In this document: positions 8,244 through 21,192 of the stretch, in pieces
Position numbering within the stretch: position 1 is the stretch's first letter
Layout: each line of letters begins with the position of its first letter
Source: Nitrososphaerota archaeon
GTDB lineage: Archaea; Thermoproteota; Nitrososphaeria; Nitrososphaerales; Nitrosopumilaceae
Reading direction: 5' to 3'
DNA length: 64,000 bases
NCBI GenBank assembly: GCA_021323705.1
Contig: JAJPKL010000007.1
Location: 1 to 64,000 of the forward strand
Position numbers and translations under genes: made by a program
The notes under the pieces: generated by a model
Told to the model about the DNA's origin: nothing
Seen by the model: the letters and a program-made list of their open reading frames with translations, nothing else
Databases searched by the model: none

Positions 8244-8519
8244 CTATTTTTCTTGTTTTGCTTGCTTGGCTTTACGTTTTGCTATAGCCCCACTTATTAT
8301 AGAAGCAACAAGCAATGCAAATGCCATTTCAGTAAAATATGCATAATTTGGACTGTGTATATCCATGAATGAAAGAATAATCAAAACAAAGCCGATGGCA
8401 GCCAATACGAAACTTATTTTGCCAAGATTATTTTTTGCCGTGATTTTCTTCCAAATTGAGACGTATTTCAACGTATCAAAATTACTTCTAGTGGATCGGA
8501 AGGGATAACCCCCGTCCAA
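8244..8519 (-). CDS. Small two-helix membrane protein spanning the element's left boundary
   Basis: The frame encodes up to 91 residues with two membrane segments (ISFVLAAIGFVLIILSFMDI and FTEMAFALLVASIISGAIA) and a basic tail (KRKAKQAKQEK). The first dozen codons, from TTG at 8519, read through the 16-bp attachment repeat and come from the element. The chromosomal part probably starts later, for example at the TTG of LKYVSIWKK. An element-borne TATA-like TTTTTATATT near 8548-8557 could now drive it. Before integration the gene lay directly downstream of tRNA-Val on the same strand. Confidence 0.55.
   Translation of the reverse strand: MDGGYPFRSTRSNFDTLKYVSIWKKITAKNNLGKISFVLAAIGFVLIILSFMDIHSPNYAYFTEMAFALLVASIISGAIAKRKAKQAKQEK
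8491..8506. repeat. Left attachment site of the tRNA-Val element
   Basis: This 16-bp sequence is identical to 21119-21134, the 3' end of tRNA-Val plus one base. The flanking bases differ, except that both copies continue into a C-run (AACCCC) after a 3-base gap. It marks the chromosome-element junction. Confidence 0.8.
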
Positions 8520-8598
8520 GGTGCATTTTTCGGTTCCGATTTTACATCTAATATAAAAACCGAATAATTAAAAAAAGGAAGTTTTACCAAATTTCTAC

Positions 8599-8784
8599 TC
8601 ACCGATAGAATTTGGTTCTGATTTCTTGTTTCTGAAAGTCAAATTCGACAGACGCCTTCACTTCTTGAGTATATACCTTAGATTGGTCAAACTCGAGATT
8701 TTTGTTTTGTAGAGCAAATAACATCTCTGTCATTTGTTCTGAATTTGAGCCGTCTGTGACTTCGTAAACTGCCTTTGTTTTCAT
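8599..8784 (-). CDS. Hypothetical 61-aa element protein
   Basis: A 61-residue soluble protein (begins MKTKAVYEVTDGSNSEQMTE, ends RTKFYR) with mixed strand/helix character and no Cys. It is divergent from the AbrB-like gene and shares its control region. A TAGGTACCCAAA site sits at 8791-8802, between its TATA-like CTTAAATAC and its start, so it is probably controlled by the same regulator. I do not recognise it; an antitoxin or small regulator is possible but unsupported. An inverted repeat TTCGGTT/AACCGAA (8529-8535, 8558-8564) lies downstream. Confidence 0.6.
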   Translation of the reverse strand: MKTKAVYEVTDGSNSEQMTEMLFALQNKNLEFDQSKVYTQEVKASVEFDFQKQEIRTKFYR

Positions 8785-8790
8785 TACTTT

Positions 8791-8830
8791 TAGGTACCCA
8801 AAATAAGTATTTAAGTGTTAGGTACCCAAA
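8791..8830. promoter_or_regulatory. Paired TAGGTACCCAAA operator, divergent promoter 1
   Basis: TAGGTACCCAAA occurs at 8791-8802 and 8819-8830, exactly 28 bases apart, with a GGTACC core. A shared TATA-like TATTTAAG lies between them. Each copy falls between the TATA and the start codon of one divergent gene (61-aa protein left, AbrB-like right), so both start sites would be covered by a bound protein. The AbrB-like product is the obvious candidate. Confidence 0.7.
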
Positions 8831-8840
8831 TTTTAAAAAC

Positions 8841-9029
8841 ATGTCAAGTTCAACACTAGATATGGAATTAAAGTTACAAAAACAACTTTCAAATGTTTAC
8901 CAAGGAAAAGAATACTCAAAATGGGTATTTGTCATTCCAACAAAGATCATAAACGAGTTGGGTTGGAATGAGCGTGGCAAGTACATAGCAGAGGTAAACA
9001 ACGGTAAGTTAGTTATTAAAAAACAATAA
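8841..9029 (+). CDS. AbrB/SpoVT-like DNA-binding protein
   Basis: A 62-residue protein starting MSSSTLDMELKLQKQLSNVY. The core is a swapped-hairpin AbrB fold: KWVFVIPTKIINELGWNERG followed by KYIAEVNNGKLVIKKQ. The pattern is strand, 'IPtkii-elgW-eG', strand, as in archaeal AbrB-family regulators and antitoxins. The frame is open from 8775, but ATG at 8841 follows a TATA-like box by about 29 bases, consistent with a leaderless mRNA. Two copies of TAGGTACCCAAA flank the TATA, suggesting autoregulation. There is no obvious toxin partner, although the 61-aa divergent gene is adjacent. Confidence 0.8.
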   Translation: MSSSTLDMELKLQKQLSNVYQGKEYSKWVFVIPTKIINELGWNERGKYIAEVNNGKLVIKKQ

Positions 9030-9052
9030 AAAAATGCAAGAATAGGTTTTCG

Positions 9053-9256
9053 TTATTCTCTGAACGCTTTTTTCCTATTCTGTTTGATAGTCAGGTATAG
9101 CAATGTACCTGATCCAAATAGCAATCCTATGCACACGTTCAAAGTAATCGCTGGCCCGGTGAACACCAAAAACAGAGTTAGGCCAACAAGTGTAGCGGCT
9201 AGGATTGCAAATTGTTCCTTTGTAGGTAATTTGCGGTATTGTTGTTGCGGTGTCAT
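9053..9256 (-). CDS. Two-helix membrane protein (67 aa)
   Basis: A 67-residue protein with a Gln-rich start (MTPQQQYRKLPTKEQF), two transmembrane helices (ILAATLVGLTLFLVFTG and ALNVC-type segment VCIGLLFGSGTLLYLTI) and a basic tail. It is divergent from the zinc-ribbon membrane protein at 9349 and shares with it the second pair of TAGGTACCCAAA sites. Function unknown. Confidence 0.6.
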   Translation of the reverse strand: MTPQQQYRKLPTKEQFAILAATLVGLTLFLVFTGPAITLNVCIGLLFGSGTLLYLTIKQNRKKAFRE

Positions 9257-9262
9257 ATCTTT

Positions 9263-9300
9263 TAGGTACCCAAATCCATACTTAAATGTTTGGGTACCTA
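9263..9300. promoter_or_regulatory. Paired TAGGTACCCAAA operator, divergent promoter 2
   Basis: One copy is direct (TAGGTACCCAAA, 9263-9274) and one inverted (TTTGGGTACCTA, 9289-9300), around a TATA-like CTTAAATG. The motif is identical over 12 bases to the pair at 8791-8830. The same regulator therefore probably controls at least four genes of the element. Confidence 0.7.
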
Positions 9301-9348
9301 AAATCCAATTGAAATAATACTAATAAGTTCAAACAAGACAAAAAAGAC

Positions 9349-9696
9349 GTGTTACGAAATAATGCAGTATGCACCACATGTGGAACGGAAGATCCTAATC
9401 CGGATAATCGTACGCCATGCCCTAATTGTGGAGATACTAGACGTTTTTTTAGTCGGAATATAGTAGAACCTGGAATTCCAGTTACCGATAGTATTTCAGT
9501 GACCACCACTTTACGGGCCATTAGAGAATTTTATCGAGAAAATCCAAAATCTGTTGGTTTGCACCTAGCCTATGCGATAGGTGCGTTGCTCGCACATCAT
9601 TTTATCGCACCGTTTGATCAAGTGATTGGTGCCACGGTAGGCGGAATAATCGCATCATTGTTTGTTGTACGGCCCCCTTTTACAAAAAACACATAA
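9349..9696 (+). CDS. Zinc-ribbon membrane protein
   Basis: A 115-residue protein with GTG start. An N-terminal zinc ribbon has two CxxC pairs (CTTCGTEDPNPDNRTPCPNC). A short helix follows, then two membrane segments (VGLHLAYAIGALLAHHFI and QVIGATVGGIIASLFVV). The ribbon faces the cytoplasm if the helices form a hairpin. It lies under the second operator pair. No family assignment. Confidence 0.65.
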   Translation: MLRNNAVCTTCGTEDPNPDNRTPCPNCGDTRRFFSRNIVEPGIPVTDSISVTTTLRAIREFYRENPKSVGLHLAYAIGALLAHHFIAPFDQVIGATVGGIIASLFVVRPPFTKNT

Positions 9697-9756
9697 AAAT
9701 AGATGAGATTCGAATGTCAAGAACTATTTTATCTTAGAATTTTGGTATTGGTTTGA

Positions 9757-10515
9757 ATGGGTAAACCACCAAAAAAACTAATCCCACTATCGAAAATCCC
9801 TGAAGGGGTACGACTATGTCATCAAAATTGTACTAGGCTATTAAAAGACGCTAAACTTCTCATTGGTAAAAAAAGATATCACACTGCAATATCTAACGTA
9901 ATACTGGCGAAGGAAGAATTTGCAAAGATTCTCTTATTGTTAAACCATTACAAAAAAGATGAAGATGTGCCCGCATCTAAAGCAGAAGAGTATTTTTCTA
10001 AACATAGAGTTAGGCTCGAAGAGTTTAGAGAATTTTATCATGATGATTTTCCACAAGTTTTAGGTGGTGGAAAAAAATGGCGACAGCATTGGTTATTTGA
10101 TGAGATGGAAAAAGAAAGACAGATCTACGTTGATTGGACTGGAATGTGGCAATCGCCTATAACACTATTCGGAAAGGCGAGCATTGTAAATCCTAAAAAA
10201 ATGTTTGAACTCATGGCCAATTCTCAAAAAAATGAGTTGGACAAAGTGCTAAATCAAATTAAACGTAATCCCTACTTTGTTGAAGCGATGGGAATAAAAG
10301 ACAATATAGTACCTACAAGACCCAAACTTCAAAAAATAATCGATAAAATAGCAGGTCAGCCCGTTAGCATCAAATTTGATTTGAATGATAAAGAATTAAA
10401 ATTAGAAATTCAAAAACATGGATTGCAAAACCATGCGCTAGTAGGTTGGAAGGCCCTACAAACTATAGGACGAATGAATTACCCTTATAGAAACATGATA
10501 AGTTGGGAAAAATAA
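9757..10515 (+). CDS. AbiV-like HEPN protein (possible abortive infection/defence)
   Basis: A 252-residue soluble helical protein. Residues 15-70 match the AbiV/HEPN pattern: a helix CHQNCTRLLKDAKLLIGKKR, then YHTAISNVILAKEEFAKILL, that is 'A..LL......A......a.EE.aK..LL', then a following FSKHRVRLEEF with the His/basic pair seen after this core. AbiV is a phage-abortive protein and many HEPN proteins are RNases. The classical R-X4-6-H motif is not clear here; REFYH is R-X3-H. The second half is unrelated to anything I know. Cargo of the tRNA-Val element. Confidence 0.6.
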   Translation: MGKPPKKLIPLSKIPEGVRLCHQNCTRLLKDAKLLIGKKRYHTAISNVILAKEEFAKILLLLNHYKKDEDVPASKAEEYFSKHRVRLEEFREFYHDDFPQVLGGGKKWRQHWLFDEMEKERQIYVDWTGMWQSPITLFGKASIVNPKKMFELMANSQKNELDKVLNQIKRNPYFVEAMGIKDNIVPTRPKLQKIIDKIAGQPVSIKFDLNDKELKLEIQKHGLQNHALVGWKALQTIGRMNYPYRNMISWEK

Positions 10516-10519
10516 AATA

Positions 10520-10666
10520 TTATGCAGATTCCCCGGTATTTTTAGTAGAATCGTTCTTATGCCCTCTGAACAAATCTACAAAATTATTAAATGCCTTTGT
10601 TAGATGTTCAGCTTCTCTCGCTTCTTCTGCTTTTGCTTTTCTTTCCTGGGTTGCTTCTTCTTCCAA
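10520..10666 (-). CDS. Coding-like frame overlapping the 3' end of the giant gene
   Basis: In the +1 frame relative to the giant gene, an open frame runs from 10699 to the TAA at 10520. From TTG at 10666 it reads a Glu/Ala/Lys helix (LEEEATQERKAKAEEAREAE) and then HLTKAFNNFVDLFRGHKNDS. It continues 29 codons past the giant gene's stop (10608) and is clearly protein-like. It is either a small separate gene with a weak start, or the real C-terminus of the giant protein reached by a frameshift or sequencing indel. Confidence 0.4.
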   Translation of the reverse strand: MEEEATQERKAKAEEAREAEHLTKAFNNFVDLFRGHKNDSTKNTGESA

Positions 10667-13600
10667 ATGGGTTTCTTTGTAATTCCTCGGCGGTGTAAAC
10701 TACGTTACCCAAATGTTCAACGTCATAGAATACATGAACCTTAGAACCTTTCTTTGAGGAACCTTCTTCGCGATAACCAAAATCACCTAGTTTTTTGAAT
10801 TTGAAAGGTTGGATGATGTCACCGCTTGTTGGGTTTTCTGGAATTGTTGGAACCGGGATTAAGTCAGGCGGGGGCGGTGGAATCTTGAACGCTGGCACTT
10901 GTTCTAACTTAGTACCAGGCGTAAGACCTACTTTTGGTATTGTAGTTAGATCAACCCCTGGCGGTAGATCTAATTTTGGTACTTTCTTTAGTCCTGGAAT
11001 GTTTTTTGGTGTTACATCTAAACCCGGCATATCGGATTGTTTTTTGTTCAATTTAGACAACGTTCCAAGTTTTGTCAAATCTTCCATCTTGCCTAATGGC
11101 ACTAAATCAACAACTGGCCCGGTTTTCTTTTTAGTTGATTCTTCCAAATCAGGGATTGCAATTAAATCGGTTCCTGGCAAATGTGCCAAATCGTTTATCA
11201 TTTTTGTATTTGATTTTGAAATGCGTTTTAGGTTAGAATCTTGCTCTATCATATCGGTGGGCGTTGAGTTTTTGATTTTAACTAATCTTGAAATTCCCTT
11301 GTACAAGTTTCTAACACCTGGGCTTGTTGTTGTTTTTGTTGTTGTGGTTTCTTGTTTTGCTGGTTCAACTACGGGTATGGTTCCGGTAATCGGTTTGGAA
11401 ATTTCCAAAGTTGGTTTTACTTTGCTTGCTGGTGTTGTAATCTCTTTTACTTGTTCTTGCAAAGTTTTAGTTGCGGATTCGCCGCCCGTTGGATTTCCTG
11501 GTGTTGCTGGCGATCCTGGTGCTTTTGTAGTGCCTGAACTTGCCTTTGTTGTTTCTTCAAATGAATAGGCCCTTTCTTCGTAGCCAGGATTCAACCCTAA
11601 TGATTTGAGATAATTATCAAATGTCTTACCGCCTACCGAAGTACCGCCATAAGTTACACCACGGGCCGCACCAGCACCAAATCTTTGAACGGATATTATT
11701 TTAGAGATTGCACTAGGTTCGGGTATCTTGACTTTGGACCCTGGGCCGTTGATGATAAAGTTACCAAACTCGGAAGCCGATCGTTTGAATTCACTTAATG
11801 AAAATTGGTAGCCCGTACCTGTTACTTTTGCATTGCCTGATTCTATCGCTTCGTTGATCCTTGTTAGTGTTGTTGGATGAATGTAAGTTGATTCGGGTAA
11901 TTTGGTTATACCGCTAGAAGTTGAAGATGTTGCAAATACATCTTTGTTTAAAGATTTTGCGTTGAATAATTCAGATTTTGTATTAATTGGGCCTATTTGT
12001 TTGGCCTTCGCTAGTTCTGATTGTAAAGACTTTGTGATTTGTTCATTGTTTGCATTTACAAAGTCACTAGGTACTGAATTTACTACTTCGGAAGGGTTTG
12101 TTTTTGTTGTTACCTCAAAGGCGTTATTGTTTATCTTTGCGGCCCTCATCAATTGAAGATCTTTCGGTTCGGTTGTACCCGTTCCAAGTATCTTATTTGG
12201 TATCTGTTTTGTTATTGTGGTTTCTGGGGTGTATAGTTCTACGGTTCCTTTGTTTAGATCCAGGACACCCGCGGCAACATAAGACGGCTTTGGTGACGGT
12301 GCAACGGCGGGGCCTTTGGGTTTTACAAGATTGCCTTTGCTATAATCTACAACTGGCGATTCCTCGATTAGTTGTTTTCCTGTTGCAACCTCATCATTGC
12401 CTGAACCTACATAGAAACGATAAATGCCTGGTGTTGCTGTCTTTTCAACAACATAAGGCGCGGCTGTCTTTGTTGTAGTTTGTGCAATATCTACGCCAAC
12501 ATAAGGTAACGGTGCTTTTCCTGTTTCAGATTTTATACTTGCTTGTAGTGCTTCACTGTTTTTAACGGCGGCTAATGAACTTGATTTAGTTACTTCGGTT
12601 GTTTGTAATACATTTCCGATTATACTTTTTGCGGTTGCTTCTTCGCTGTTTCCGGTGACTAATCCTTTCAAAAAAGATATTCCGGTTTTAGCACCGCTCA
12701 CAATATCACCAACAGGAAGAAGTGAAAGCCAGATAGTTGGTAACGCTCGACCTATGGCCCCCGCGGGATTAGCAGAAATTGAAGTTCCAATTTGTTGATA
12801 TTTAGAGGCTAAAACAGTACCGTAAGAAACACCATATGATTTCGATTCTTGATAGGATTGTATCGGTGCTGAAATTGCTTGACTAATGATATCATCAGAA
12901 CTAGGAATATTGTTATCTTTGCCACCACTTGCAATAAAATTGTAAACTCCTTTAAGATCTGCTAGTGTTTCGTTAATTCCTATATTGCTATTTTTGACGA
13001 ATTCACCTATTGCAGAATCTGGCGCCCCAGTTTTTGGCAATGGTGTTTTTGGTGTCACTACCCATGGTTGAAGAGTTAGAATATCATCAAATGATAGTAT
13101 ACCTTGTTTCTCTAATCCCATTAGATAATTTCCGGCGTTTGAAACTCTCATTGCTGGATTTGTCGCGTATTCTTTTAGAATTGCTTCACGTAGTCCTTCA
13201 TTTGTGGACACAAAAGGCGCATTGGCTTTTTGTACCTGAGCGTTGTATTGCTTTACGCTGTTGTTCAATATAGTAACATCGGGTTTTGTTATCACTCCCT
13301 TGTTTTCTAATGGTATTAGATAACTTGGATTTATGTTTACAAATGCACTAGGATTTGAAGTCCGTGCTTCTATTATTGCTTGTTCAAGTTCGGGGTTTGT
13401 TGAAATTCCGTTATTGAAATTATTTAATTTAGTTTCTTGTTGCTTGTTATAATTCAGAAAGGCGGCGTTTATTTTATCAATATCGCTAGGCAATAAGACG
13501 TTTTTTGTTTCCAAACTTGTGAGATATCCCGTATAATTTCCGTATTTTTCAGGGTGTGCGGTGATATTAGAAACTAATTCTGATTCTAATTCGGGGTTTG

Positions 13601-14726
13601 TAGATTTTGGCCCTGCTGTTCCACCGGGCAAAACTTCGCCCAATGTTGGTTTTTCTGCATTAAGCGAAAGTGCTTTGCTTGGTTTTGAGTTTGAAACTTG
13701 GAAATATACGGTTGGTTGAACCGTGTTATACACATCTTCATTTGAAAGAACGCCTGTCTTAATTAACGATTGTAGATAATTGCTTGGTAATGTCTTGAAG
13801 GCATTCGGGTTATTTTCCCTTTCTTGTATTATCGCGTTTCTTAATCCTGGATTAGAAGAAACAAAAACAGTTGTTGAAGGTACGGCGGTTTTAGTCGTAG
13901 TTATGATTGGTGTTGAAACGGTTGGTGTAGATTTTACAGAAACAATAGAGGGTTTGATTGTATTTGAGAGATCGTCATTTGATAAAACACCCTTTGCCAC
14001 TAAATTTTGCAAATAATTACTTGGGTAATATTGAAATGATTTTGGATTTGATTGCCATTCTTGTAAGATCGCATTTCGTAAACTTGGATTAGTTGAAACA
14101 AAATTTATTTCGCTTGATGGTGCTGATGCTGGTGCTGGTGTATTGATTACCGTCTTTGCAATCTGAACACCCGTAGAAATTGGCGTTACTGTAGAGCCTG
14201 ATCCTAAAATCGGTGTTTTGGTTTCATTGCCTGATAATGCGGATTGACCTAGATCAAGCCCCTTACTTTGCGGTGTTTCTATTCCCGGTGCTACCGCTAA
14301 CGGTATAGGCGGTTTTGGTATTGCCGCAGGTATTAGGATTGTTGTTGTTTCTGATATTGGTTTTGAAGCATTGCCGAAATCTGATAACACCTGGGCTTGT
14401 TGCGGTTGTTGTGGCTGTTGTGCTTGTTGAGCCTGTTTAATTGCCGCTGCTTGTGCTGAATCTGTATTACTTCCGATGTTTCCCGTTATTTCGTCAGAAA
14501 TCACTTTATCGTTTTGTGATTCTTGTGTATTCAACGCCGCACTTACTTTGTTTGGTGTTGAGTTTTGAGAAGATGAACTTACGGAATTACTACCGCTTTC
14601 AAAAGCCTGAGTTTGACCAACTGTAAAATAATTGTACCAATTCGGTTGCGGGCCAGTTCCGTTAATGTATGCATTCATTGCCGCCCGCCATGCCGCTACT
14701 TGTTGTGGATTTAGTTGCGACGACAC
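10608..14726 (-). CDS. Giant multi-repeat, proline-rich protein (1372 aa)
   Basis: The largest gene of the element, with no recognised family. The N-terminus has Ser/Gln-rich low complexity (QAQQAQQPQQPQQAQ near 98-112). Five copies of a roughly 50-residue module lie at about 209-260, 288-338, 373-422, 440-490 and 505-554, with consensus VSTNPxLxxAIxxExxxNP, then YLxxLxxxGVLSxxD. A hydrophobic stretch (ALPTIWLSLLPVGDIVSG) sits near 661-678. The last 250 residues carry P-x-L/V-type tandem motifs (IPGLKKVPKLDLPPGVDL, PPPPPDLIPVPTIP) and a basic tail (GRRSNPGKKSKSRRS). No signal peptide. It could be a virion, surface or scaffold protein; this is inference. Confidence 0.75.
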   Translation of the reverse strand: MSSQLNPQQVAAWRAAMNAYINGTGPQPNWYNYFTVGQTQAFESGSNSVSSSSQNSTPNKVSAALNTQESQNDKVISDEITGNIGSNTDSAQAAAIKQAQQAQQPQQPQQAQVLSDFGNASKPISETTTILIPAAIPKPPIPLAVAPGIETPQSKGLDLGQSALSGNETKTPILGSGSTVTPISTGVQIAKTVINTPAPASAPSSEINFVSTNPSLRNAILQEWQSNPKSFQYYPSNYLQNLVAKGVLSNDDLSNTIKPSIVSVKSTPTVSTPIITTTKTAVPSTTVFVSSNPGLRNAIIQERENNPNAFKTLPSNYLQSLIKTGVLSNEDVYNTVQPTVYFQVSNSKPSKALSLNAEKPTLGEVLPGGTAGPKSTNPELESELVSNITAHPEKYGNYTGYLTSLETKNVLLPSDIDKINAAFLNYNKQQETKLNNFNNGISTNPELEQAIIEARTSNPSAFVNINPSYLIPLENKGVITKPDVTILNNSVKQYNAQVQKANAPFVSTNEGLREAILKEYATNPAMRVSNAGNYLMGLEKQGILSFDDILTLQPWVVTPKTPLPKTGAPDSAIGEFVKNSNIGINETLADLKGVYNFIASGGKDNNIPSSDDIISQAISAPIQSYQESKSYGVSYGTVLASKYQQIGTSISANPAGAIGRALPTIWLSLLPVGDIVSGAKTGISFLKGLVTGNSEEATAKSIIGNVLQTTEVTKSSSLAAVKNSEALQASIKSETGKAPLPYVGVDIAQTTTKTAAPYVVEKTATPGIYRFYVGSGNDEVATGKQLIEESPVVDYSKGNLVKPKGPAVAPSPKPSYVAAGVLDLNKGTVELYTPETTITKQIPNKILGTGTTEPKDLQLMRAAKINNNAFEVTTKTNPSEVVNSVPSDFVNANNEQITKSLQSELAKAKQIGPINTKSELFNAKSLNKDVFATSSTSSGITKLPESTYIHPTTLTRINEAIESGNAKVTGTGYQFSLSEFKRSASEFGNFIINGPGSKVKIPEPSAISKIISVQRFGAGAARGVTYGGTSVGGKTFDNYLKSLGLNPGYEERAYSFEETTKASSGTTKAPGSPATPGNPTGGESATKTLQEQVKEITTPASKVKPTLEISKPITGTIPVVEPAKQETTTTKTTTSPGVRNLYKGISRLVKIKNSTPTDMIEQDSNLKRISKSNTKMINDLAHLPGTDLIAIPDLEESTKKKTGPVVDLVPLGKMEDLTKLGTLSKLNKKQSDMPGLDVTPKNIPGLKKVPKLDLPPGVDLTTIPKVGLTPGTKLEQVPAFKIPPPPPDLIPVPTIPENPTSGDIIQPFKFKKLGDFGYREEGSSKKGSKVHVFYDVEHLGNVVYTAEELQRNPFGRRSNPGKKSKSRRSERS

Positions 14727-14743
14727 CTAAAATTATGGTCAAG

Positions 14744-14759
14744 TTACTTATTTAAGTAA
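14744..14759. promoter_or_regulatory. Palindrome at the giant gene's promoter
   Basis: TTACTT-ATTT-AAGTAA is a perfect palindrome with 6-bp arms. It overlaps the likely TATA of the giant gene (start 14726, minus strand). The divergent replication cassette has its own TATA-like TTTATAAAAA near 14790. It may be an operator. Confidence 0.4.
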
Positions 14760-14821
14760 GAAATTAGTTTGCACACTTTTTCCTTTCAATTTATAAAAAC
14801 AGGTAGTGCGAATAATTGCCC

Positions 14822-15115
14822 ATGCCCGCAAAACACAGAATTTGGGTTGCACTTAATTCAGAAACTTACAGAAAATTCGAATCAAAATTTCCTAATACTG
14901 AACTCAACCAATGGGCAAAAACATTAGTTTCAGATATTATTAATGAAAGAAGAATTGTAATAGACTTCTCTGATTTCAGAGTCAAAGATTTAGAAATCTT
15001 AAACATGAAATTGCAAATTGAACTTCTCAATGAAAAATTAGCAAAAGCGAGGGGGTGTCCTCCGCCCCCTCGATCTAATCCACCTCTCGCAACTGAGGAG
15101 ATTGAAGATGGGTAA
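14822..15115 (+). CDS. Small putative DNA-binding protein, first gene of the MCM cassette
   Basis: A 97-residue protein starting MPAKHRIWVALNSETYRKFE. A short strand followed by two helices (SETYRKFESKF, LNQWAKTLVSDIINE) is compatible with a ribbon-helix-helix domain. A coiled-coil helix (NMKLQIELLNEKLAKA) and a Pro-rich end (CPPPPRS) follow. It overlaps the next gene by 8 bases, and all four genes of this cassette overlap. ATG at 14822 is preferred to TTG at 14816. The RHH assignment is tentative. Confidence 0.6.
   Translation: MPAKHRIWVALNSETYRKFESKFPNTELNQWAKTLVSDIINERRIVIDFSDFRVKDLEILNMKLQIELLNEKLAKARGCPPPPRSNPPLATEEIEDG
15048..15072 (+). repeat. GC-rich hairpin inside the MCM cassette
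   Basis: CGAGGGGG (15048-15055) and CCCCCTCG (15065-15072) form a perfect 8-bp stem with a 9-base loop, in an otherwise AT-rich gene. It encodes the ARGCPPPPRS stretch. It lies about 36 bases before the next start codon and could modulate translation or RNA stability of the downstream genes. Confidence 0.5.
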
Positions 15116-15284
15116 TCTTTCGTTTTCGGGGTTAATATTTATCGCTGATAACGCCATATGTTGCCCGTTCTGTCAGGGCAGAAGGCGAGTTTTTGATACA
15201 CCACATAACTTCGGTGTTCATCTTGCCTTTTCCCATAAACTGAGTTCAAAAACTATCAAGAAAATTTTAGGAGAGTTACCATGA
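15108..15284 (+). CDS. C2H2-type zinc-finger small protein
   Basis: A 58-residue protein starting MGNLSFSGLIFIADNAICCP. It contains CPFC, 15 residues, then H-LAFS-H, a C2H2-type zinc finger. A basic helix KLSSKTIKKIL follows. ATG at 15108 is supported by GGAG at 15096-15099; TTG at 15102 is the alternative. It overlaps both neighbours, so it is translated as part of the MCM operon. Probably a DNA-binding accessory factor for replication or copy control (inference). Confidence 0.65.
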   Translation: MGNLSFSGLIFIADNAICCPFCQGRRRVFDTPHNFGVHLAFSHKLSSKTIKKILGELP

Positions 15285-15514
15285 TTTACAACATCAGTTG
15301 TATTGTTCCTACTTGCCGTTCCTATCACAAAGTCATACTTGCAGACAGAGAGCAAATTGAGGCTCATTTTAAGGGCCATGATTCCGCAGAACTTCATAAA
15401 ATTGCTCGTGAACTAGGCATTATCAGTAATGATGGTTTTTACTCAAAAAACTATCTTGCTACTCGAATTTTTGAATATTTAGCCGCACAGAACACTATTG
15501 GGGGGTCTCCTTGA
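15281..15514 (+). CDS. C2H2-type zinc-finger small protein 2
   Basis: A 77-residue protein (MIYNISCIVPTCRSYHKVIL...). CIVPTC is followed 16 residues later by HFKGH, giving a C-X4-C-X16-H-X3-H zinc finger. The C-terminal half is helical (HKIARELGIIS, YLATRIFEYLAA), resembling a small winged or SAP-like segment. It overlaps the previous gene by an ATGA and the MCM gene by TGATG, so translation is tightly coupled. Confidence 0.65.
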   Translation: MIYNISCIVPTCRSYHKVILADREQIEAHFKGHDSAELHKIARELGIISNDGFYSKNYLATRIFEYLAAQNTIGGSP

Positions 15515-17553
15515 TGGCGCAGGACGTAGTTAAGGAAAACTCAGTTAGTTCAGCGTTTGTTATTGACAAAATAACTGAATTCTTCAAGATGGTAAAAGAT
15601 GGCAAATATATTAATAAAATTGATGCTCTCGAAGGCGCAAATCTTATCCTAAACTATTATGATTTTTTTGATTATCAGCAAGATAACCAAGTATTTTCGA
15701 TTTTTGATTTTCTCAACAGAAATCCCGAACAATTCATCCATTTTTGCGAGATCTCTGTAAAAGAAATTTATTCTGAAAAACATGGAAAAGAGAAAGCCAA
15801 ATTATTAGATCTGACGATTCAGGTTGACAAATCAGAATTAGAAATCACCGTAAATCAAGCAATAAAAAATAGACACCTAAACAAACTTGTTACAATTTCA
15901 GCCTTGGTAAATGGCGAAAGTGAAATTCAGAATAGAATCAAACTAGGTTCTTGGGTTTGCGCCGAAGGACATAAAACAATATCAGAAAGTGAAAAATCAC
16001 CTTTAAAATGCGGTAATTCAAAGTGTACAGAAAGACGACTTGATTTAGATTACGAATCAACAAAAATTGAAAGTTATCGTACTTTCTATCTTAAAGACGT
16101 GAATTACACCGTGCATCATGGAGATACATTAATCGCTGAAGCAAAAGGCGATTTAAGTGATATAGCGAAAGTTGGCGACATTGTCCAAATCACAGGGTAC
16201 ATAACATCACAACAAAAAGACAAGAAATTATTCAATATTCTGCATATTCTTAACATCGAAATAACAAATAAAATTGATTATCAAATCACAGAAGAAGATA
16301 AAAAAATATTCGAGCAATGGCCCAAGAAAGATAATTTCTATCCAACATTAATTAATTCGATAGCGCCGCAGATTTACAAAAATGAATTATTGAAAGAAGC
16401 CTTTCTTTTATGTTATATTGGTTCTTCTAAATGGTCTGCTGATCAGAAATATTGGATTAATGTTTTAGCAGTTGGTGATCCCGCCACGGCAAAAAGCAAA
16501 ATTGCACAATGGGGTAACAGAGTGTTACCAAATGTTAGTTTAGTCTCATCAAAAGCGGGTTCTGCTAAAGGTTTATTCGCGGGACAAAAAGAACAAATCG
16601 ACGGAAACAAGGTTTTAGAGGTTGGCCCGATGGTACAAAACAGCGGCCGCGGCCTAGTCTGTATTGATGAATTCGCCAGAATGTCAGAGGTGTTTGATGT
16701 GTTTTATTCCCCAATGGAAAACGGTAGATTCAATTCTGCAACTGTAGGGGGCCATTCGGACTTACCAGCCGAAACACCCATCTATGCAACTGGCAATCCT
16801 AAAAAATCAAATTTCTGGGATGAAAACAAGTCCGTTTTAGATAATCTCCAAGTTTTTGAACCGGCCATGTTGTCACGATTTGACTTGATTATGATTCTCA
16901 AAGATTTCGGAACCATAGAAGTCGATACCAAGATAGCAGAGACAATTTTATCACAAACTACAGGCGATAGAGCCATTTCTTATAACGAAGTGGATTTGGC
17001 AAAATACCTGATGTTTTGTAAGACGATTCACCCAAAACTAACCGATGATTCTAAGAAGATTATTACCCAAATTTTTGTTGATATTCGCAGACAAGCGCGC
17101 GGTTCGTTGATAGATCATCAAGATCTCAATGTTAGATTGGTTGGTGTCATAACCAGAATATCACTTGCAATTGCACGAATCCACCTACACCACGAAGTAA
17201 AAGAGGAAGATGTTAGTCTAGCAAGACGACTTTTAGAAAATATGTTGCACCAACGAGGACTCAAAGTTAGCAATGCAAATACCTATGTCGATAGAGTTGC
17301 ACAGAAAATTCTAACGATTCTTGAAAGTTCGATATCTGCGCTGACTGACCAGGAAATCTATGAAAAATTATTTATTACCTTTGAACAAGAAAAAGATACG
17401 CTGTTAAACGACATTGGAACGGAGGGGCCACATAGAGACTCTAACAAACGATGGCGCGCCATAATGGAGAATGTAGAAAAGTCGTACTTGATTGAAATTG
17501 AAAGTATGAAGCCTAAGAAATTAAGATACAAACATGAGCAAACTAGACTCTAA
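15514..17553 (+). CDS. mcm: MCM-family replicative helicase encoded by the element
   Basis: A 679-residue AAA+ helicase that unwinds DNA at forks. An N-terminal region with a Cys/His zinc site (WVCAEGHK ... LKCGNSKC) is followed by an OB-like part. The motor has Walker A VGDPATAKSK, Walker B LVCIDEFARM, sensor 1 ATGNPK and arginine-finger region LSRFDLIMIL. A C-terminal winged-helix-like tail begins near residue 595 (LTDQEIYEKL). Walker B has CIDEFARM where host MCMs usually have CIDEFDKM. ATG at 15514 overlaps the preceding stop. A helicase of its own implies autonomous replication of the element at some stage. Confidence 0.92.
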   Translation: MAQDVVKENSVSSAFVIDKITEFFKMVKDGKYINKIDALEGANLILNYYDFFDYQQDNQVFSIFDFLNRNPEQFIHFCEISVKEIYSEKHGKEKAKLLDLTIQVDKSELEITVNQAIKNRHLNKLVTISALVNGESEIQNRIKLGSWVCAEGHKTISESEKSPLKCGNSKCTERRLDLDYESTKIESYRTFYLKDVNYTVHHGDTLIAEAKGDLSDIAKVGDIVQITGYITSQQKDKKLFNILHILNIEITNKIDYQITEEDKKIFEQWPKKDNFYPTLINSIAPQIYKNELLKEAFLLCYIGSSKWSADQKYWINVLAVGDPATAKSKIAQWGNRVLPNVSLVSSKAGSAKGLFAGQKEQIDGNKVLEVGPMVQNSGRGLVCIDEFARMSEVFDVFYSPMENGRFNSATVGGHSDLPAETPIYATGNPKKSNFWDENKSVLDNLQVFEPAMLSRFDLIMILKDFGTIEVDTKIAETILSQTTGDRAISYNEVDLAKYLMFCKTIHPKLTDDSKKIITQIFVDIRRQARGSLIDHQDLNVRLVGVITRISLAIARIHLHHEVKEEDVSLARRLLENMLHQRGLKVSNANTYVDRVAQKILTILESSISALTDQEIYEKLFITFEQEKDTLLNDIGTEGPHRDSNKRWRAIMENVEKSYLIEIESMKPKKLRYKHEQTRL

Positions 17554-17571
17554 TAGATACACCAGTCAAAT

Positions 17572-17612
17572 AGGTCAGATAGGTCAGATTGAATGTATAT
17601 GACCTATCTGAC
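17572..17612. repeat. Inverted/direct repeats downstream of mcm
   Basis: AGGTCAGAT is repeated in tandem at 17572-17580 and 17581-17589. A 13-bp perfect inverted repeat pairs GTCAGATAGGTCA (17574-17586) with TGACCTATCTGAC (17600-17612) around a 13-base AT-rich spacer. It lies 19 bases after the mcm stop. It could be a terminator hairpin or an iteron-like origin; both are inference. Confidence 0.55.
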
Positions 17613-17629
17613 TCATGTGACCGTTACTT

Positions 17630-17839
17630 CTATTGTTCTTGTTTCATAGGCAAAGGTATGTTGAATCGGCGCGCTTGCTGAATTGTGATAACATTTAGTC
17701 TTAGAGCGCATGAGATACAGAATCTCTTTTTCTTTCTCTTACCTATACAATATTCATGATATAGTTCTGTTTGACATTCTCTACATTGCACATGGAAACG
17801 ACAAACATACACCTGTGTTTGAGTTTTGATTCGAACCAT
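17630..17839 (-). CDS. Zinc-ribbon basic protein (69 aa)
   Basis: A 69-residue protein with two CxxC pairs (CREC and CISC, plus an upstream Cys in VYVCRFHVQC). A very basic loop KRKKKRF lies between them and a helix QQARRFNIP at the C-terminus. The features fit a nucleic-acid-binding zinc ribbon. It is convergent with mcm, with the inverted repeats between their 3' ends. Function unknown. Confidence 0.6.
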   Translation of the reverse strand: MVRIKTQTQVYVCRFHVQCRECQTELYHEYCIGKRKKKRFCISCALRLNVITIQQARRFNIPLPMKQEQ

Positions 17840-18312
17840 AGAAGCCGAACTAGATTTTAATTAATTTTGATATTTTTAAAAATTGAATCTCATGGAGAGT
17901 AGTAGAGAAGGGAAGCGAACGATCGATTTGTTGATTCGCATTTTAATTTATTATTCTATGGTATAATTCTAAGGAATGATATACAAAGAAATCAAATTGA
18001 TGAAAAACAGATTGAACCACTAATAGCCATTCTCAAAACGCTAGAACTTTCAAAGTCATAAAACACGAACAGTTTGTTAGCCCTTTTTGGGCTCTAAACC
18101 TACCACTTTTTCTGATAGTTTTGCCATAAGACCAGGGGTTTTCAATGAAAAAAATCACTAATAACTATCTATTGGCCCCAAAAAAGCCAGTAAAGCGCCT
18201 AATTACGGTATAAAGGATAAATCGGGAATTCGTTTGCGGGTAGAACGGCTTTAACAAATTTCTACTGGCGATTCGGCGCGCCAATATAGGGCCATAAAAC
18301 AGACTATATGAG
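17840..18312. other. 473-base gap inside the element without a clear gene
   Basis: AT-rich, without a convincing gene. It contains a short hairpin AGCCC-TTTTT-GGGCT at 18079-18093. Between about 17905 and 18060 a frame stays open without a start codon and ends in a protein-like stretch (QIDEKQIEPLIAILKTLELS), possibly a decayed or non-ATG small gene. An origin of replication would be plausible here, near mcm, but no iteron array is seen apart from 17572-17612. Confidence 0.4.
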
Positions 18313-18945
18313 ATGTGTTATGAAAGCAATGATTGTTCAGGGATGTCGCGTCCTACCTACATAAAGATTCCAAGTTTTCTAATCAAGTGGTTTACCCCAT
18401 TTTTTATTGTAGGTTTGATACTCGAAATTACTACTCTACTACATTCTATTCCAATTGTATTGCAGATTAGGACTTCGCTTTGGGTTAACCAATTTCATCA
18501 ACTCATTTTTTGGCCAACCTTCATACTTTCTTTTATTTTCTTTTATCTATCATTCAAAAAAGATGTAGACGCCATTACAAAACCACGTATGACGCTATAT
18601 CTATTTTTGTTGATTTTAACGGCTCCTGTAATAATACTAGCAATCGAACCATATCTTTTCTTCAGCGAAGTTGCATTGTTTATTCCGACTGATTTCGCTA
18701 ATACGAGAGTAACTGAACAAAAATTTGAAAGTGTTGATTCGGAAGTTCGATTACTCTCTCTTGTAATAGTTCCGACTATTATGCCGTTAACGACTTATCT
18801 TAAAGAAAGAAAATTACGATCTTTGAATATTAAAATGAACAGTCTGTATAATGTTGATTTTGAGAATTTTTTTCCGTTAATGTGGATGACTTTCATAGGC
18901 ACGTTAATCTATGTGTTTTATTATAATTATCAGTTATACAATTAG
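18313..18945 (+). CDS. Polytopic membrane protein of the element
   Basis: A 210-residue protein with about five membrane segments (FLIKWFTPFFIVGLILEI, FIWPTF-type LIFWPTFILSFIFFYLSF, LYLFLLILTAPVIILAI, LSLVIVPTIMPLTTYL, MWMTFIGTLIYVFYY). Start may be ATG at 18313 or ATG at 18343 (MSRPTYIK). No transporter motif is visible. It converges with the CAP-domain gene, 2 bases apart. Function unknown; envelope modification or immunity is speculative. Confidence 0.6.
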   Translation: MCYESNDCSGMSRPTYIKIPSFLIKWFTPFFIVGLILEITTLLHSIPIVLQIRTSLWVNQFHQLIFWPTFILSFIFFYLSFKKDVDAITKPRMTLYLFLLILTAPVIILAIEPYLFFSEVALFIPTDFANTRVTEQKFESVDSEVRLLSLVIVPTIMPLTTYLKERKLRSLNIKMNSLYNVDFENFFPLMWMTFIGTLIYVFYYNYQLYN

Positions 18946-18947
18946 AT

Positions 18948-19742
18948 TTACCAACAAGATTTTGCATCCTGAGGTTCGGTTTCAAAACTACTAGGATCAT
19001 ACTCATATCCTGGTTGTAATGAGGCTTGAAAGTCTTGAACCATGACCAATTGGCCCGGGATAGTTGCTATACCTATTGAGACAGACGACCATTGAGGATC
19101 CAGGATGTTTTTTTGGTGGCCCCAATTTGAACCCGCGTCATCGAACATCATTTCATAGTTTTCTTTCAAAACCTGAGATTTTGGATTGGTAAGAACGGCA
19201 TCAGAGTCAGCGGCTATATTTTCACCTACAAGATACATGGTATCACCATTATTCTTGTATCTTAACATCGGCCCCTCACCTTTAGAGTCAATATGATGTA
19301 TGCATCTTTCTTGTAATAACTCCTGGGAATACAATTGTGGTGACTTTGCGTTACCTAATGTTACTGGCCCAATACCGTGTTGTTTTCGATAGTTGTTAAG
19401 ATCATCTAATGCAACTTGACGTAATTCAGTCAAAGAAGGTGAAGGCCCTAGTAATATAGGACTATTTGTAGTGGCTTGTGAGATATTTGCTGTTAAAGTA
19501 GAGATCTTTGTAAGTATGGGTTTAGTATACGGCGATTGTTCTATTTTTGGTAACTCAGAATCTACTTTGTTAGTTAGTACGTTAAGATTTTGATAGATAA
19601 AAAATCCGACAATAATGATGCCGACCAAGACAGAGACGATCTTAACATGTCGTTTTGTTTGATAGGTTAGTAGCCTTCTATGGCCACAACGAACACAAAC
19701 GAGTTTATCGCCTCGCCATTCATAATGATGTTTGCAATTCAA
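18948..19742 (-). CDS. Membrane-anchored CAP/SCP-domain protein with N-terminal zinc ribbon
   Basis: A 264-residue protein. Residues 1-22 form a zinc ribbon (CKHHYEW, LVCVRCGHR), residues about 34-52 a single membrane helix (IVSVLVGIIIVGFFIYQNL), and then a linker. From about residue 110 there is a CAP (SCP/PR1) domain: LNNYRKQHGIGPVTL, SQELLQERCIHH, LVGENIAADS, GSNWGHQKNILDPQW, LVMVQDFQ. CAP proteins act outside the cell in adhesion, lipid binding or proteolysis. With the ribbon inside and CAP outside, it could signal across the membrane (inference). It lies 5 bases downstream of the integrase gene in the same operon. Confidence 0.8.
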   Translation of the reverse strand: MNCKHHYEWRGDKLVCVRCGHRRLLTYQTKRHVKIVSVLVGIIIVGFFIYQNLNVLTNKVDSELPKIEQSPYTKPILTKISTLTANISQATTNSPILLGPSPSLTELRQVALDDLNNYRKQHGIGPVTLGNAKSPQLYSQELLQERCIHHIDSKGEGPMLRYKNNGDTMYLVGENIAADSDAVLTNPKSQVLKENYEMMFDDAGSNWGHQKNILDPQWSSVSIGIATIPGQLVMVQDFQASLQPGYEYDPSSFETEPQDAKSCW

Positions 19743-19747
19743 CTAAC

Positions 19748-21070
19748 TTACTCCTGAAGAAATTTTTCTTGGTTAGCCAGAAATTCAGATAATTTTTTAG
19801 CGCCTTCTTTTGTGTTTTTGTTTTTACATAGTTCTTGCAAGAAAGCAAGTTTATCGATATCCTTTAGAAGGGATTGGTGTTCTGCAAGTTGTTTTTGTAT
19901 GCTAGCAAATTCATCCCTTTGAATTGTTAAACTCTCGTTCTTAATGCGCAATTCTTCATTTTCTATGGATTTACGTTCTGCATCATCGATTGTTAGCGCG
20001 GGCACAGCGTGAAGATATTCTTCGACCAACTCCAGTACATGAGATTTGAAATAATTCCTATCCGTTTTAACCAAACCTGTATGGCTCATCATGTATTCTT
20101 TTTTGATTAAGGCGGCAAGAGGGGAGTCTTTTGAGGTTGTTTCCTTGTTTACTTTGTTGAAAAATCTTCTAAATCCATTCATGACAGGCACTTCATATCT
20201 TCTCATGCCTTTTGGTAATTCTTGTCGCAGATTAGCAGTAAGTAGTAATCTCTCAATGTGTCTTTTGATTGCCGTTGGTTTGCACATTATTGGAACGTTC
20301 CCTTCAACTTTGAATATCGGATCGCCTGGCTTCGGTTCTCTACCTACCTCTTTCGTCCATTGAATCTTCCATTCCATAAGGGCCCCGTAGGCTTCAGGTG
20401 TGATAAAAGCGGGATAATAATCTGAAGTTCCGTCATAAATTTTTAAGATGGCGCAAACTACTTTTGCGTCCTTTTCCTGTGATTCTGTAATTTCTAGCAA
20501 TATCTTATTGTCTACTCGGTAGACTGGCATCAGATGATTCCATTTTAGAGCAAAACCCCCCTCTCTAATCCCCGAACTTGCGGCAACTAGTATTATTGAT
20601 TTGTTAAACCAACTGCCGGTGGATTCAAGCATTTTTTGAATCTCTTCTCGCTTGTACCCCCTACCCTCATTGGTGTTATCATGCTCAGGAAAGGTAGCAT
20701 AGACGCGTTTCCAAACTACAGGAACGCCGTTCATGTCAAGTAATTTCTTTAGTGGTTTGAAGTAATTACCAAACGAACTAGGGTTATAGTAATTTTTATC
20801 AGTTCTCGGAAGTTTGGTTCTTTCTTTTAATTTGCCCGCCAATGATAGCATAACGCTTAGGGCCCAATCAGGATCATTCTTTGCTTTCTTTACAAACTGT
20901 GTTGCTCGTTCTTCAAAAGTTCCTGTTAGGACATCTTCAAGTATGTTACACAGCGTATTTTTTAGAATTCTAGTATAACGTTCTTTTGTGGCTTCGGCCT
21001 TGATTCCATCATAGAATAATTCAATTGGATTCTTCTCAACCTTTTCAATATCAGTTAAGTTGATTTTCAA
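19748..21070 (-). CDS. Tyrosine recombinase (integrase) of the tRNA-Val element
   Basis: A 440-residue archaeal-type tyrosine integrase. The catalytic domain includes SSGIREGGF with the first Arg, a Lys/His-containing middle, an NGFRRFFNKV box in the HxxR position, and GLVKTDRNYFKSH with the likely nucleophile Tyr. A C-terminal coiled coil follows (ENEELRIKNESLTIQRDEFA). The open frame reaches 21214 but would translate the tRNA gene. I therefore choose TTG at 21070, with GGAG at 21079-21082 eight bases before it. It should catalyse integration and excision between 8491 and 21119. Confidence 0.88.
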   Translation of the reverse strand: MKINLTDIEKVEKNPIELFYDGIKAEATKERYTRILKNTLCNILEDVLTGTFEERATQFVKKAKNDPDWALSVMLSLAGKLKERTKLPRTDKNYYNPSSFGNYFKPLKKLLDMNGVPVVWKRVYATFPEHDNTNEGRGYKREEIQKMLESTGSWFNKSIILVAASSGIREGGFALKWNHLMPVYRVDNKILLEITESQEKDAKVVCAILKIYDGTSDYYPAFITPEAYGALMEWKIQWTKEVGREPKPGDPIFKVEGNVPIMCKPTAIKRHIERLLLTANLRQELPKGMRRYEVPVMNGFRRFFNKVNKETTSKDSPLAALIKKEYMMSHTGLVKTDRNYFKSHVLELVEEYLHAVPALTIDDAERKSIENEELRIKNESLTIQRDEFASIQKQLAEHQSLLKDIDKLAFLQELCKNKNTKEGAKKLSEFLANQEKFLQE

Positions 21071-21118
21071 ATTACAGACTCCATGCGTAGCGGATCCTAA
21101 AAAAGCACTCTGAAAGTG

Positions 21119-21134
21119 GTGGATCGGAAGGGAT
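21119..21134. repeat. Right attachment site (3' end of tRNA-Val)
   Basis: Identical over 16 bases to 8491-8506. It covers the discriminator base, the acceptor 3' strand and part of the T-stem, so integration leaves the tRNA intact. Confidence 0.8.
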
Positions 21135-21192
21135 TCGAACCCCTGACCACCGCAGTGTGAGTGCGGTATCCTACCAGCTAGACCACCGATCC
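21120..21192 (-). tRNA. tRNA-Val (anticodon CAC)
   Basis: A 73-base cloverleaf on the minus strand without encoded CCA. The acceptor stem is GGATCGG/CCGATCC with discriminator A. The D-arm is GTCT...GGAT, and the anticodon stem CCGCA/TGCGG has loop CTCACAC, giving anticodon CAC, which reads GUG (Val). The T-arm is AGGGG-TTCGAAT-CCCTT. Its 3' end is the integration target of the element. Confidence 0.95.

Follow-up and report, generated by a model that had tools for sequence, protein, structure and literature searches.

The closest known system to the locus described here is C68 of the Sulfolobus plasmid-virus pSSVx, a small protein with two binding sites in the stretch that separates its gene from a divergent one (PMC5569661). 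Cryptic integrated elements bearing an MCM gene are described for Thaumarchaeota by Krupovic et al. 2019 (PMC6563490). Here, we describe four exact copies of one short motif, paired around two TATA-like boxes at one end of an integrated element, next to the gene of a 62-amino-acid (aa) protein with a predicted AbrB/MazE hairpin fold. The window, meaning the whole stretch of DNA that was analysed, is 64 kb long.

Results

An exact motif scan found TAGGTACCCAAA three times on the forward strand and once inverted, with no fifth copy in the window (Table 1); the first-pass annotation, which had listed four identical 12-mers at these positions, was thus right on every copy. That annotation had named many scattered copies in the genome as grounds for giving up its claim of an AbrB regulon, and this check did not refute it: only four exact copies were found genome-wide (1,840,223 bases, 44 contigs), all at this locus. 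With one mismatch allowed there were 12 matches in the genome against 13 for a reversed control pattern, so that the 8 such matches at other places are no more than chance would give. Among 20 first-order resampled sequences of 64 kb, none had a non-repetitive 12-mer with four copies inside 550 bp, and in the real window TAGGTACCCAAA was the sole one to reach that number over such a distance. The full site is a 14-bp near-palindrome (TTTRGGTACCYAAA in three copies, GTTAGGTACCCAAA at 8819). The GGTACC cores form two pairs with a centre spacing of 28 bp in each, and a TATA-like box lies midway in either pair.

Three of the four flanking genes (61-aa, AbrB-like, and 67-aa) have their ATG about 26 to 30 bp from the centre of the TATA-like box, where a leaderless transcript from that box would be expected to begin. 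The 115-aa gene has a GTG at 9349 as its sole possible start, about 67 bp from the TATA centre, giving a leader of about 40 bases; the earlier description of every site as lying between a TATA-like box and a start codon therefore fits three genes well and is loose for this one. The AbiV-like gene, 60 bp further on, may or may not share the transcript of the 115-aa ORF, and its product gave no match in PADLOC. A sigma-70-type promoter scan, a type unsuited to archaea, stayed at background level. No relative of the 61-aa protein was found in the other 249 of 250 family genomes, and the 67-aa and 115-aa proteins were found only in their own genome among 37 genomes of the genus.

Table 1. Features of the integrated element and of the paired sites, in window coordinates
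Feature	Position	Strand	Basis
Left attachment repeat, copy of tRNA-Val 3' end, GTGGATCGGAAGGGAT	8491..8506	+	
61-aa ORF, divergent from AbrB-like gene	8599..8784	-	ORF list
Candidate operator 1, TAGGTACCCAAA	8791..8802 (GGTACC core 8793-8798)	+	Motif scan; footprint in relatives
TATA-like box TATTTAAG in the middle of the first pair (operators 1 and 2), able to serve either direction	8808..8815	.	Sequence
Candidate operator 2	8819..8830 (core 8821-8826)	+	Motif scan
AbrB-like putative repressor, 62 aa; second ATG at 8862	8841..9029	+	ORF, homology, fold model
Probable membrane protein, 67 aa, convergent with AbrB-like gene; promoter between operators 3 and 4	9053..9256	-	Membrane nature read from sequence
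Candidate operator 3	9263..9274 (core 9265-9270)	+	Motif scan
TATA-like box ATACTTAAAT in the middle of the second pair (operators 3 and 4)	9278..9287	.	Sequence
Candidate operator 4, inverted	9289..9300 (core 9293-9298)	-	Motif scan
Zinc-ribbon-like ORF, 115 aa, divergent from 67-aa gene	9349..9696	+	Weak zinc-ribbon matches
AbiV-like HEPN protein, 252 aa, 60 bp behind 115-aa ORF	9757..10515	+	PF18728, E 5.1e-14
MCM-type helicase of the element	15511..17553	+	No site at promoter
Presumed integrase, 440 aa from ATG 21070, adjoining tRNA	19751..21070	-	Matches in 128 of 250 family genomes, own included
Intact tRNA-Val (CAC) gene	21117-21192	-	
Right attachment repeat, inside intact tRNA-Val (CAC)	21119..21134	+	

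The four sites lie close to the left boundary of an integrated element that measures about 12.6 kb (8491-21134), sits at tRNA-Val (CAC), and is bounded by a 16-bp attachment repeat. The ORF that adjoins the tRNA gene gave no integrase match in Pfam; from its position and its resemblance to thaumarchaeal integrases we take its product to be one, and its longest reading is overlapped by the tRNA gene. The MCM operon spans 14816-17553. From 9303 to 36257 there was no match to TAGGTACCCAAA with up to two mismatches, hence none at the integrase or MCM genes. No virion protein of the element was recognised with Pfam or PHROGs, and several ORFs are orphans. One of them (10608-14726) encodes a 1372-aa protein with repeated STNPELRNAI-like segments, which had no Pfam or PHROGs match and was found in no other of the 250 family genomes; neither it nor the MCM had relatives in viral contigs. 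The ORF at 18948-19742 gave a weak CAP-domain match (PF00188, E 0.0024, under the curated cut-off).

Searched against Pfam and NCBIfam, the 62-aa protein itself matched no AbrB family at E 0.1; profiles may miss a protein that is short and divergent, and the negative speaks neither for nor against membership of the AbrB/MazE superfamily. Its relatives, found at E 1.1e-10 and weaker, in turn match AbrB models (PF04014 in 18 of 20, best E 1.4e-7; TIGR01439 in 16 of 20, best E 4.6e-6), and the protein shares the pattern IP..I..LGW..G..L with the DNA-binding domains of AbrB, SpoVT, and MazE. An AF2 monomer model (m27d9ea877fbe, alignment of 20 proteins, pLDDT 82.9) has the order strand-strand-helix-strand-strand. 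Its best structural matches, of middling strength (Z 5.0 to 6.0), were AbrB, SpoVT, MazE with and without DNA, and C68; all 19 highest rows (Z 6.0 to 3.3) were AbrB, SpoVT, MazE, VapB, Abh, C68, C56, or the "histone-like" 5itj/5itm, and the best Foldseek match reached E 0.048.

Matches to the protein were found in 16 of 250 family genomes (own included), a profile search gave matches in 77 of 400 genomes of the order, and named archaeal genomes held 27 loci, from Thaumarchaeota and DPANN (Pace-, Woese-, Aenigm-, and Nanoarchaeota). The named relatives suggest a thaumarchaeal host for the window. For promoter comparison, 77 loci were assembled from 52 profile matches (E up to 6.8e-8), 2 family matches, and 23 of the 27 named-genome loci (4 duplicates removed); near-identical proteins were retained, so that the loci are not independent. 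A promoter was counted as site-bearing if it had at least two copies of a near-palindromic 12-mer within 160 bp upstream of the gene, a definition that names no motif and was drawn up once motifs were already apparent at some loci. By this count 32 of the 77 loci, the window included, had two to five copies, against 15 of 1,707 control segments; the other 45 loci fell short of the definition. A Fisher test on these counts would treat related loci as independent. Copy spacing peaked at 23 to 28 bp, and a TATA-like box lay between the copies in 25 of 28 pairs spaced by 22 to 29 bp, compared with 174 of 560 control segments. This footprint concerns the promoter of the AbrB-like gene itself; the partner genes of the second pair were not found elsewhere in the genomes searched. 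At two DPANN-type loci (L117 and L122), four sites spaced by about 25 bp form a ladder around two TATA-like boxes, and the AbrB-like domain is the N terminus of a longer ORF (283 and 276 aa) that is followed by another gene and adjoins a different divergent ORF.

The form of the site varies by clade, being mostly TTAGGTACCTAA or close to it and TTAGGCGCCTAC, TTAGATATCTAA, TATGGTRCCATA, or GTATGTACATAC in other clades. Where the residue at the position of N18 of the window protein is R, TTAGNNNNCTAA-type (TTAG) sites were found at 39 of 46 loci, TATG-type sites at 1, and neither at 6; where it is Y, all 13 loci had TATGNNNNCATA-type sites. The window protein, with N at position 18, has a TTAG-type site. 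This correspondence was first noticed and then counted on the same loci, and the count leaves out 17 of the 77, which by its pattern have no KLQK-like start. In a tree of 52 different sequences the Y proteins form one clade, and the R/Y-to-site correspondence is essentially one split; it thus reflects co-divergence of clades and not repeated independent switching, and a Fisher test on the R and Y counts overstates it. At loci not used before, TTAG-type sites were present at 4 of 4 proteins of the KLQK/RLQK type, all R-type and none Y-type, and seven others that lack this start had no TTAG-type site.

Viral contigs held no relative when searched with the window protein, relative A3, or relative L104. 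Six loci were found with L053 as the query. One of them, L165, on a predicted viral contig of 28.9 kb from IMG/VR, encodes a KLQK/RLQK-type relative with a single TTCGGTACCTAA (TTAG-type) site upstream. The other five are without the KLQK/RLQK N terminus and had no TTAG-type site; L167 and L168 had one TATG-type match each.

A SWIM/IS6-type transposase gene stands beside the AbrB-like gene at 35 of the 77 loci and at 22 of the 32 that are site-bearing. We considered whether the site belongs to the transposase and rejected this: at 10 of the 32 site-bearing loci, among them the window, no such gene turned up within the stretch searched (up to 1.6 kb on each side, ending within 1 kb on one side at L043, L068, L110, and L112), and the site thus goes with the AbrB-like gene. 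Perfect inverted repeats of at least 14 bp were not found around the AbrB-transposase unit in L102, L104, or L114. A phmmer search placed a proteasome-like gene beside the AbrB-like gene at 9 of 77 loci, 7 of 32 among the site-bearing ones, and that gene may have a site at its start too, as in, for example, L044, L045, L046, L048, L052, L062, and L029. In L026 to L030, as well as in L052 and L062, three genes make up one unit: a DDE_Tnp_IS240 (SWIM/IS6-type) transposase-like gene, an AbrB-like gene, and a convergent gene of proteasome-like (Ntn hydrolase) type, whose start also has operator-type sites nearby. The unit resembles a transposon that brings along a repressor and, as cargo, a peptidase-like gene.

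Discussion

We think it likely that the 62-aa protein is a dimeric repressor of AbrB/MazE fold, which blocks TBP/TFB at the two TATA boxes through the flanking sites and regulates its own gene. The protein would bind as a dimer to the TTTRGGTACCYAAA-type site, and two dimers would flank each of the two TATA boxes, one on either side, keeping TBP/TFB and RNA polymerase off two divergent and, judging by the start codons, mostly leaderless promoters. Besides its own gene it would hold down those of the 61-aa and 67-aa proteins, and perhaps also the 115-aa gene together with the AbiV-like gene that follows. As the repressor would act on its own promoter, its level would settle at a set point (negative autoregulation). 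Judged by where the sites lie, its direct targets would be four in number, all small genes towards one end of the element, or five if the AbiV-like gene is among them, and its purpose would presumably be to quiet genes of the element.

The position of the sites, taken by itself, suits repression and activation alike. The protein might instead be an activator, or an architectural protein of nucleoid-like kind, and assist TBP/TFB from these sites in binding weak TATA boxes, as would suit sites that adjoin the TATA box without lying on top of it. Some archaeal viral regulators act in both ways, AvtR being known to stimulate at low and repress at high concentration (PMC5569661). The sites are, however, on both sides of the TATA box within about 14 bp, the polymerase-loading side included, and most characterised archaeal regulators are repressors, with promoter occlusion as the usual mode (PMC5569661); we regard activation as quite unlikely. 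The first-pass annotation had offered an AbrB regulon that serves as a lysogeny-type or copy-control switch. Its regulon is supported by the comparison, since relatives repeatedly carry such sites at their own promoters. The switch, in which the AbrB-like protein would keep the element dormant and its loss would induce excision or replication, agrees with the integration of the element at a tRNA gene, with its integrase and MCM helicase genes, and with the role of the small repressor F55 in SSV1 (PMC5569661), but the integrase gene and the MCM operon are without a site at up to two mismatches, which gives no support to a direct control of excision or replication. The element also has no recognised virion protein, and viral contigs gave no relative of the repressor with the window protein or A3, L165 having come from a different query. 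Such a switch therefore seems unlikely.

The sites could also be the usual autoregulation sites of an antitoxin, given that MazE and VapB antitoxins have the same fold and autoregulate and that the AbiV-like HEPN gene is 0.7 kb downstream. Yet no toxin gene shares an operon with the AbrB-like gene, the next gene being convergent on the opposite strand, the neighbours of its relatives are often transposase-like and proteasome-like, and 62 aa is too short for a C-terminal toxin-binding tail, which makes a toxin-antitoxin pair very improbable. GGTACC is a known restriction site, and flanking of a TATA box is typical of promoter elements; the motif might thus be a restriction site, a host-factor site, or a general promoter element beside which the AbrB-like gene stands by accident. 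That would hardly leave four exact copies in a whole genome, and with 8 occurrences against 8.6 expected the window shows neither avoidance nor enrichment of GGTACC. Similar sites accompany AbrB-like genes in other phyla as well, their cores altered in other clades, and an accidental neighbour is extremely improbable.

A wider reading, to which we give slightly less than even weight, is that mobile elements (SWIM/IS6-type transposons, other units with a transposase, and integrated elements such as the present one) have carried a single family of small AbrB-like repressors through Thaumarchaeota and DPANN, with repressor and operator changing together in each clade. A clamp on either side of the TATA box would then let each type of element silence its own promoters and no others, and the change in recognition would lie in the first hairpin, at one or two residues (SR/NR to TTAGG, AY to TATGG). 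If true, this would be an archaeal counterpart of phage or transposon immunity; to our knowledge, little is known of how mobile elements are quieted in these archaea. The locus offers a candidate regulator, exact sites, and a simple rule, operator-TATA-operator, that can be tested in vitro on two short fragments. Natural variants of repressor and site are a possible source of a specificity rule for AbrB-type proteins, and the promoter of a repressor gene may give a way to predict which genes an element controls. A search by title or by the start of the abstract, mostly of literature outside subscription, found no description of this AbrB-like family.

Comparison with known systems

The domains of Bacillus AbrB and SpoVT and of E. 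coli MazE have a fold like that of the model; the protein here differs in having no toxin partner, no C-terminal domain, and strict short palindromes as candidate sites. Bacillus AbrB targets are loose and AT-rich.

The element resembles the cryptic elements of PMC6563490 in being integrated, in carrying an MCM gene, and in having no recognised virion genes; the word AbrB has no occurrence in the main text of that paper, whereas the element here carries an AbrB-like gene. In SSV1, F55 is likewise a small element-borne repressor with repeated sites at several promoters, its own included (PMC5569661). It differs in its ribbon-helix-helix fold, its tandem ATAGATAG sites, and its control of early genes, whereas the integrase and MCM genes here are without a site.

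C68 (PDB 3o27) is, like the 62-aa protein, a small AbrB-fold protein of an archaeal mobile element, and the model matches it at Z 5.0 with 16% identity in the structural alignment. Its motif, TATG(C/GG)TTTTC (PMC5569661), contrasts with the GGTACC palindrome here and, read by eye, is absent from 8785-8835 and 9257-9306. According to the same paper, the high-affinity C68 site overlaps the BRE and the second lies midway between the promoters, whereas the sites here form a symmetric pair around the TATA box. The likeness is in the arrangement: operators 1 and 2, to which the AbrB-like protein would bind, lie between its own gene and the divergent 61-aa gene, just as the C68 sites do between C68 and its neighbour.
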